64,000 bases of DNA from Nitrosopumilus oxyclinae. Lineage in GTDB: Archaea > Thermoproteota > Nitrososphaeria > Nitrososphaerales > Nitrosopumilaceae. The stretch spans positions 310,001 to 374,000 of the forward strand of contig NZ_CP026994.1 of the NCBI RefSeq assembly GCF_013407165.1, written 5' to 3'. Position numbers and translations under genes: made by a program. Positions 27,065-27,744 of the stretch are shown piece by piece; within the stretch, counting starts at the first letter, position 1; each line of letters starts with the position of its first letter. Below the pieces are notes generated by a model, which was not told the DNA's origin, made no database searches, and saw only the letters and a program-made list of their open reading frames with translations.

Positions 27065-27330
27065 CTAGTTGCAATCTTTGCAGTGGGGGTCTCTGCAAAC
27101 AGGATTACTGTTCCCATCCCTTGTTGGGTATTTTGTATCTCTTCTTCTATATGTTCTAGTCAAGTTTTAGTATCTCCTTTTTTGCGTAGTGCAAGTAAAG
27201 TTTTTGCAAATGGGATTTTTTCTAGTTTGATCTTTTTTTGCAATTTTTGTTTTTCACTAAATGTGGATAGTACTTCTTCTGTCAACTTGTCAAACTGTGA
27301 TGCAAAGTATAATGCGTTTGAATATACCAT
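27061..27330 (-). pseudogene. Small gene interrupted by an in-frame TGA
   Basis: One frame of 90 codons from the ATG at 27330 (MVYSNALYFASQFDKLTEE) continues past a TGA at 27160-27162 with equally protein-like sequence (LEHIEEEIQNTQQGMGTVIL) to a stop at 27061. The overlapping ATGA with the next gene shows that the second half is the natural end of the gene. The simplest reading is a nonsense mutation in an 88-90-residue protein; two separate short peptides or read-through are alternatives. The opposite-strand frame here is a shadow. Confidence 0.6.
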
Positions 27331-27522
27331 GATACAATTACGTGAAACTAATACAAGAGTAGTGTCATGACAATTCTAAACATTTGTTTGGTTTTTGTAT
27401 AGAAATGATCAGAAAAACAAAGAGTTGTGAATTAATTGTAATGTCAAAAAATAATGGAAAAATCAAACAGATTTTCATGTTTGCTGCAGAGTCCTTTTTA
27501 TTTTATTATGACTAGTATGATC

Positions 27523-27610
27523 AAGGCAGTAATCCATCAAAGTAACATCGAATGAAAGAGTCGATGGTGTTGATCAATGGATCAGTTCTGATTACTGCCT
27601 TTGTTTTTTC
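27523..27610 (+). ncRNA. Structured RNA candidate: three-way junction with T-run end
   Basis: Outer stem of 12 perfect pairs: AAGGCAGTAATC (27523-27534) with GATTACTGCCTT (27590-27601). Inside are two hairpins: CATCGA/TCGATG (27546-27566, loop ATGAAAGAG) and TGATC/GATCA (27571-27584, loop AATG). A T-run (27604-27609) follows, and a T/A-rich TATA-like element (about 27496-27507) lies 20-25 bp before the outer stem. No coding frame covers it. Together this looks like a free-standing ~80-nt RNA with its own promoter and terminator. It is not a tRNA, 5S, SRP or RNase P RNA, and I do not recognise the family. Confidence 0.55.
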
Positions 27611-27639
27611 CGGTATTTTGTAAAATGTATGATTGTGAG

Positions 27640-27744
27640 TTATTCTTCTGCAAGTATTGCCTTTACTTCTTTTTTGTGGGTGGTGCAGTAGGGCGGGGAG
27701 TTTTTACAATCTGGACAGTTTAGATACTTTCTGAAATCTAGCAT
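27640..27744 (-). CDS. Mini zinc-binding-like protein (34 aa)
   Basis: An ATG-started frame of 34 residues, MLDFRKYLNCPDCKNSPPYC then TTHKKEVKAILAEE. Cys10, Cys13, Cys20 and His23 form a CX2CX6CX2H set that could hold one zinc ion. The cysteine density in so short a frame, in an otherwise cysteine-poor proteome, argues against chance. Function unknown; nucleic-acid or protein binding is possible. Confidence 0.45.
   Translation of the reverse strand: MLDFRKYLNCPDCKNSPPYCTTHKKEVKAILAEE

Follow-up and report, generated by a model that had tools for sequence, protein, structure and literature searches.

A structured RNA family with a dedicated promoter element in marine ammonia-oxidizing archaea, and a subset of copies directly before TFB genes

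Background

Few microbes on Earth are as abundant as the ammonia-oxidizing archaea, and their regulatory RNAs are little known. sRNA162 of Methanosarcina mazei, an archaeal intergenic sRNA (PMC3510493), is one of the closest described cases. The likeness to the RNA reported here lies in a small archaeal RNA being tied to the expression of a transcription factor gene. The present family belongs to another lineage, however, and differs in being multi-copy, in its covarying three-way junction, in its dedicated promoter and in lying partly directly before genes for TFB; no sequence or structure comparison between the two was made. Tan1 (PMC5069720) is likewise an uncharacterised structured ncRNA of marine archaea, but it is euryarchaeal and 229 nt long; again no direct comparison was made.

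Two further kinds of system are relevant. Riboswitch and attenuator leaders with an intrinsic terminator form a general class, and the TFB-linked copies of our family exhibit the same series of promoter, structured leader, U-run and start codon. Unlike such leaders, most copies of the family have no gene behind them, no ligand is known, and the stem closing the junction itself precedes the U-run, without a separate terminator hairpin. Rli55/EutX and CsrB are bacterial decoy sRNAs carrying a riboswitch or a protein-binding motif. By analogy, a single motif would here be used in two ways, in a free RNA and in the leader of an mRNA; those RNAs are bacterial, however, and the comparison is not meant to imply any shared sequence or structure.

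In the literature searched, of which coverage was partial, there is no report of such an RNA in ammonia-oxidizing archaea. An earlier mention of one member is not excluded, and the Nitrosopumilus maritimus genome paper reportedly discusses candidate ncRNAs. We consider the RNA to represent a previously uncatalogued structured family of marine ammonia-oxidizing archaea, of a general kind (small regulatory or leader RNA) that is known, in a double setting that is unusual. For these organisms it provides a structured RNA family that is well supported and comes with a promoter element of its own. In part of the family the RNA is physically linked to genes of the expanded TFB initiation factors. 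What each of these factors does is still open, and can now be tested directly by means of the family, its consensus and its promoter.

Fold of the window RNA

The window is a 64-kb stretch of the Nitrosopumilus oxyclinae genome. The features of the RNA locus within it are as follows.

27457..27476, + strand: upstream promoter element GAAAAATCAAACAGATTTTC (consensus AAAWTAAACAAATNTT), about -62 to -44 from the start of the RNA model
27495..27505, + strand: TATA-like element TTTTTATTTTA; TTTTAW at the same position in family members
27523..27609, + strand: non-coding RNA gene; the transcript is predicted to run from about 27523-27526 to the U-run (fold, models R2 and R3, covariation)
27523..27534, + strand: P1 5' strand, AAGGCAGUAAUC, 12 perfect pairs with 27590-27601; covaries in the family
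27546..27566, + strand: P2 hairpin, CAUCGA/UCGAUG, arms 27546-27551 and 27561-27566; covaries in the family
27570..27585, + strand: P3 hairpin, UUGAUC-AAUG-GAUCAG, arms 27570-27575 and 27580-27585; covaries in the family
27590..27601, + strand: P1 3' strand, GAUUACUGCCUU; covaries in the family
27604..27609, + strand: U6 run preceded by UG, probable transcription terminator (from the sequence and the T-runs in members)

A preliminary description, made from sequence alone, had proposed a perfect 12-bp outer stem enclosing two further hairpins, a T-run at once after the stem, a TATA-like element at promoter distance before it, a gap without coding frame, and no recognisable RNA class. All of these held. 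Folding of 27523-27609 on the + strand gives exactly that three-way junction, followed by the U6 run; the TATA-like element is conserved in register; no ORF of 50 aa or more covers the RNA; and no Rfam family matches it. The further proposal, a stand-alone non-coding RNA, is supported by the conserved fold, the promoter and the U-run, in the absence of expression data.

The minimum free energy of 27523-27609 is -26.0 kcal/mol, against -15.65 ± 2.78 kcal/mol in 200 dinucleotide shuffles (z = -3.72), none of which reaches the native value. The z-score weakens to -2.15 once some flanking sequence is added, so that fold energy alone does not settle the matter. Across the whole window, P1 alone forms a perfect inverted repeat of 12 bp or more when spacers of up to 80 nt are allowed, and a T6 run comes after it. 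The mean number of such repeats in shuffled windows is 1.8, and a repeat followed by T6 occurs in 0 of 20.

A multi-copy family

In a plain DNA search the own genome yields one copy, genome G066 two and genome G068 one, with 78-82% identity over the RNA. Among these four closest copies about 70 bp of upstream sequence are as conserved as the RNA itself, and the downstream flanks differ. The four are too similar to reveal covariation; they were the seed of a covariance model (R1), which added eight more divergent copies. A second model (R2) was made after this 12-sequence stage and a third (R3) was built from 68 members. The window RNA is recovered by both R2 and R3. In all, searching the fetched loci with these covariance models gave 125 members. 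As a control, chance matches to the P1 pattern in bacterial and viral sequences score at most 29.6 bits, versus 62 to 99 bits for the forward-strand matches that this pattern search gave in archaeal records. No convincing member was found in viral contigs, where the best of seven pattern matches (L146:879-972, 27 bits, E = 0.03) is probably due to chance.

With R3, the broadest model, members are detected in 85 of the 400 Nitrososphaeria genomes sampled; these belong to 11 of 82 genera. Carriers include Nitrosopumilus and Nitrosarchaeum, and four genomes from a second family of the same order also carry the RNA. Copies occur in 26 of 39 near-complete Nitrosopumilus genomes, with one to seven in each; the own genome has exactly one. 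The RNA is not essential, since one third of the near-complete Nitrosopumilus genomes are without a detectable copy. Copies inside one genome are very divergent.

Two single loci may be mentioned here. L094 (genome G009) exhibits three divergent copies within about 2 kb, at positions 1501, 2217 and 3367. In L153, from a second-family genome, the RNA seems to come within about 50 nt after a tRNA gene lying just upstream of position 2001.

Covariation

The preliminary description would have been refuted by relatives that lose the stems or break their pairing. The opposite was found: all three stems are kept, with many compensatory changes. Strict synteny is not kept, and the comparison used family members located elsewhere instead of one orthologous gap. 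From a MAFFT alignment of 12 sequences, not fitted to any structure, RNAalifold predicts the three-way junction unprompted. In this alignment two-sided changes occur in 8 of 27 pairs, with a covariation score of 0.264 against 0.199 for shuffled alignments and at most 0.094 for slid partners. In the alignment of 68 members all 27 pairs exhibit two-sided changes, with 264 compensatory cells versus 83.7 ± 7.1 in shuffles; 90.7% of the cells pair, and the score is 0.442 versus 0.197 (shuffled) and at most 0.114 (slid). This larger alignment was fitted to the R2 structure, and its counts are accordingly biased towards that structure. The window RNA is a member of a structured RNA family that conserves a three-armed fold.

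Conserved unpaired positions are an AAA before P2, the P3 loop region UCANNGGA and UUGGUUU before the 3' strand of P1. By the conservation profile, the P3 loop region is the most conserved part of the RNA apart from P1. The AAA and UUU stretches might form a short extra helix at the junction. The window copy represents a short subtype without this AAA/UUU stretch.

An alternative fold, a single long hairpin in which AUCAA (27536-27540) pairs with UUGAU (27570-27574), fitted the four closest copies and was the basis of model R1. It was dropped, as P3 covaries strongly across the wider family.

Promoter and transcript ends

When members are aligned at P1, a TATA-like sequence CTTTTTATTTCA appears at -27 to -15 (box at about -25) and the upstream element AAAWTAAACAAATNTT at -62 to -44. 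Among 124 members, 117 carry TTTTAW at the TATA site, versus 3% at random positions, and both elements together are found in 73 of 124 versus 0.04%. The upstream element is kept in register in Nitrosopumilus and Nitrosarchaeum; in members outside these two genera it is mostly missing and the U-run is often missing as well. The exact composite of upstream element and TATA-like box has one occurrence in the own genome, at the window RNA. A T-run of at least four follows P1 in 93 of 125 members and is often absent in distant genera. Of these elements, the upstream one, at 27457-27476, was not part of the preliminary description, which also did not anticipate the multi-copy family or the TFB-leader role in relatives.

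Archaeal TATA boxes sit about 26 bp before the transcription start. The 5' end of the RNA is therefore predicted at the first base pairs of P1, an inference from archaeal promoter geometry that no RNA data support as yet. A discrete transcript and termination at the U-run are likewise inferred, without expression data.

TFB-linked and stand-alone copies

The distance between the RNA and the start codon of an intact TFB (TFIIB) gene is -2 to +14 nt in at least 13 members. The Pfam TFIIB domain was confirmed in the two TFB-linked genes tested. Two further members, in L003 and L069, have a truncated or frame-broken TFB behind them. By our own estimate, fewer than 0.01 cases at a TFB start would be expected by chance, given some 7-10 TFB genes per genome. 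A single clade holds the main linked TFBs, and the TFB of L061 falls in another, so that the linkage between RNA and TFB arose at least twice. The promoter is in register with P1 alike in stand-alone and TFB-linked copies. The latter retain the U-run and leave no room for a separate TFB promoter.

About 110 of the 125 members (about 88%), the window copy included, are not TFB leaders. No TFB lies behind the window copy, and none of the seven TFB genes of its genome has the RNA as a leader. Several orthologous stand-alone sets persist across genomes; these cannot be leaders, because the gene immediately behind them is on the opposite strand.

Comparison with known classes

Against Rfam 15, neither the window RNA nor eleven relatives match any family at the gathering threshold, and with E-values up to 10 only weak, implausible matches appear (E ≥ 0.18). 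ARAGORN finds no tRNA at the window RNA. None of the 125 members combines a C box close to the 5' end with a D box close to the 3' end, and an ACA in the tail, as in H/ACA RNAs, is present in just 6 of 125. A MITE is not indicated by the extent of the conserved unit, which reaches about 62 bp past P1 on one side only (target duplications were outside the search). Of the marks of an RNA gene with its own promoter, a covarying structure, a promoter at fixed distance and a terminator-like U-run are present, and a discrete transcript is inferred. The position between promoter and start codon that a leader occupies is found in the 13 TFB-linked relatives and not in the window copy or most members.

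Interpretation

On balance we lean towards the view that the window element is a stand-alone gene for a regulatory RNA, or for the RNA of an RNP, that was co-opted at least twice as a leader or attenuator of TFB genes; its transcription, ligand and target are inferred or without data. Given the copies directly before TFB, the family is likely to be part of an unknown gene-control system. According to the model, the two-part promoter would drive transcription from the first pairs of P1 to the U-run just past P1, giving an RNA of about 85 nt closed as a three-way junction. The fold and the promoter register are shown by sequence comparison, and transcription is inferred. The RNA would most likely act in trans, either on its own as a regulatory RNA or within an RNP; this is inference only, with no target or binding protein known. 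The conserved P3 loop UCANNGGA and the A-rich/U-rich junction would be the likely binding surfaces, also without binding data. In those relatives where the unit of promoter, RNA and U-run lies directly before a TFB gene, with no more than 14 nt between U-run and start codon, it would necessarily form the leader of the tfb transcript. We infer that most transcripts there probably stop at the U-run of the RNA and that some continue into tfb.

A bolder version may be entertained, in which these dispersed three-way-junction RNAs with their dedicated promoter control, or are read by, the expanded TFB set, and in which free RNA and attenuating leader both act, helping to select which TFB is used.

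The main rival, which remains possible, is a riboswitch-like cis attenuator of TFB genes. The junction would sense either a ligand or a protein, for which TFB itself is one possibility, and would set read-through past the U-run; orphan copies such as that of the window would be remnants, or decoys titrating the same ligand or protein. In its favour are the 13 members with a TFB start codon right behind the U-run, which is kept with no room for a separate promoter, and the closest relatives of the window copy, in which the RNA is followed by a truncated TFB (L003) or by no TFB (L002, L004). Against it, most members do not precede any same-strand gene, and stand-alone sets are conserved across genomes. 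Moreover, the window copy retains its promoter, its fold and a perfect P1 without a TFB behind it, which argues for a function independent of a gene in cis; this is a single copy, so independence remains possible without being decided.

The other explanations are all very unlikely. A mobile MITE-like repeat, with the 12-bp inverted repeats serving as terminal repeats for a transposase, would account for the 79-bp core bounded by these repeats and for several copies per genome at different places. However, the conserved unit extends about 62 bp on one side, the two internal helices covary, copies within a genome are very divergent, and orthologous loci are conserved. A modification guide of the C/D or H/ACA type, or some other housekeeping RNA already known, would also be small, structured and archaeal, but the lack of a C and D box pair, the rarity of ACA (6 of 125), the absence of an Rfam family and the patchy presence speak against it. 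Finally, a mere strong hairpin terminator of the upstream gene would explain the stem followed by U6, but that gene (27160-27330) faces the opposite way, the RNA has its own promoter in register, and P2 and P3 covary although they are not needed for termination.

Neighbouring genes

Frequent neighbours of family members are RAM-domain proteins (24), TFB (22) and a DUF6659-like family (22). These families are believed to be expanded in such genomes, and the enrichment, which is unmeasured, is for this reason merely suggestive.

In the window, the upstream gene (27160-27330, - strand) points away from the RNA. It is a 56-aa ORF (MVYSNALYF...), homologues of which lie beside family copies in L087, L094 and L172; in these three loci the RNA points towards the ORF, and in the window it points away from it. 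Just behind the RNA, a short ORF on the - strand (27639-27743) exhibits a zinc-ribbon-like CPDC...C pattern, MLDFRKYLNCPDCKNSPPYCTTHKKEVKAILAEE. The next ORF of at least 50 aa behind the RNA on the same strand encodes a matrixin-type metalloprotease (PF00413; 28044-29018, + strand).

A composite similar to the RNA promoter is also found before DUF1059-like genes in three relatives (L065:2519, L092:1039 and L185:326), a possible hint of a shared regulon.
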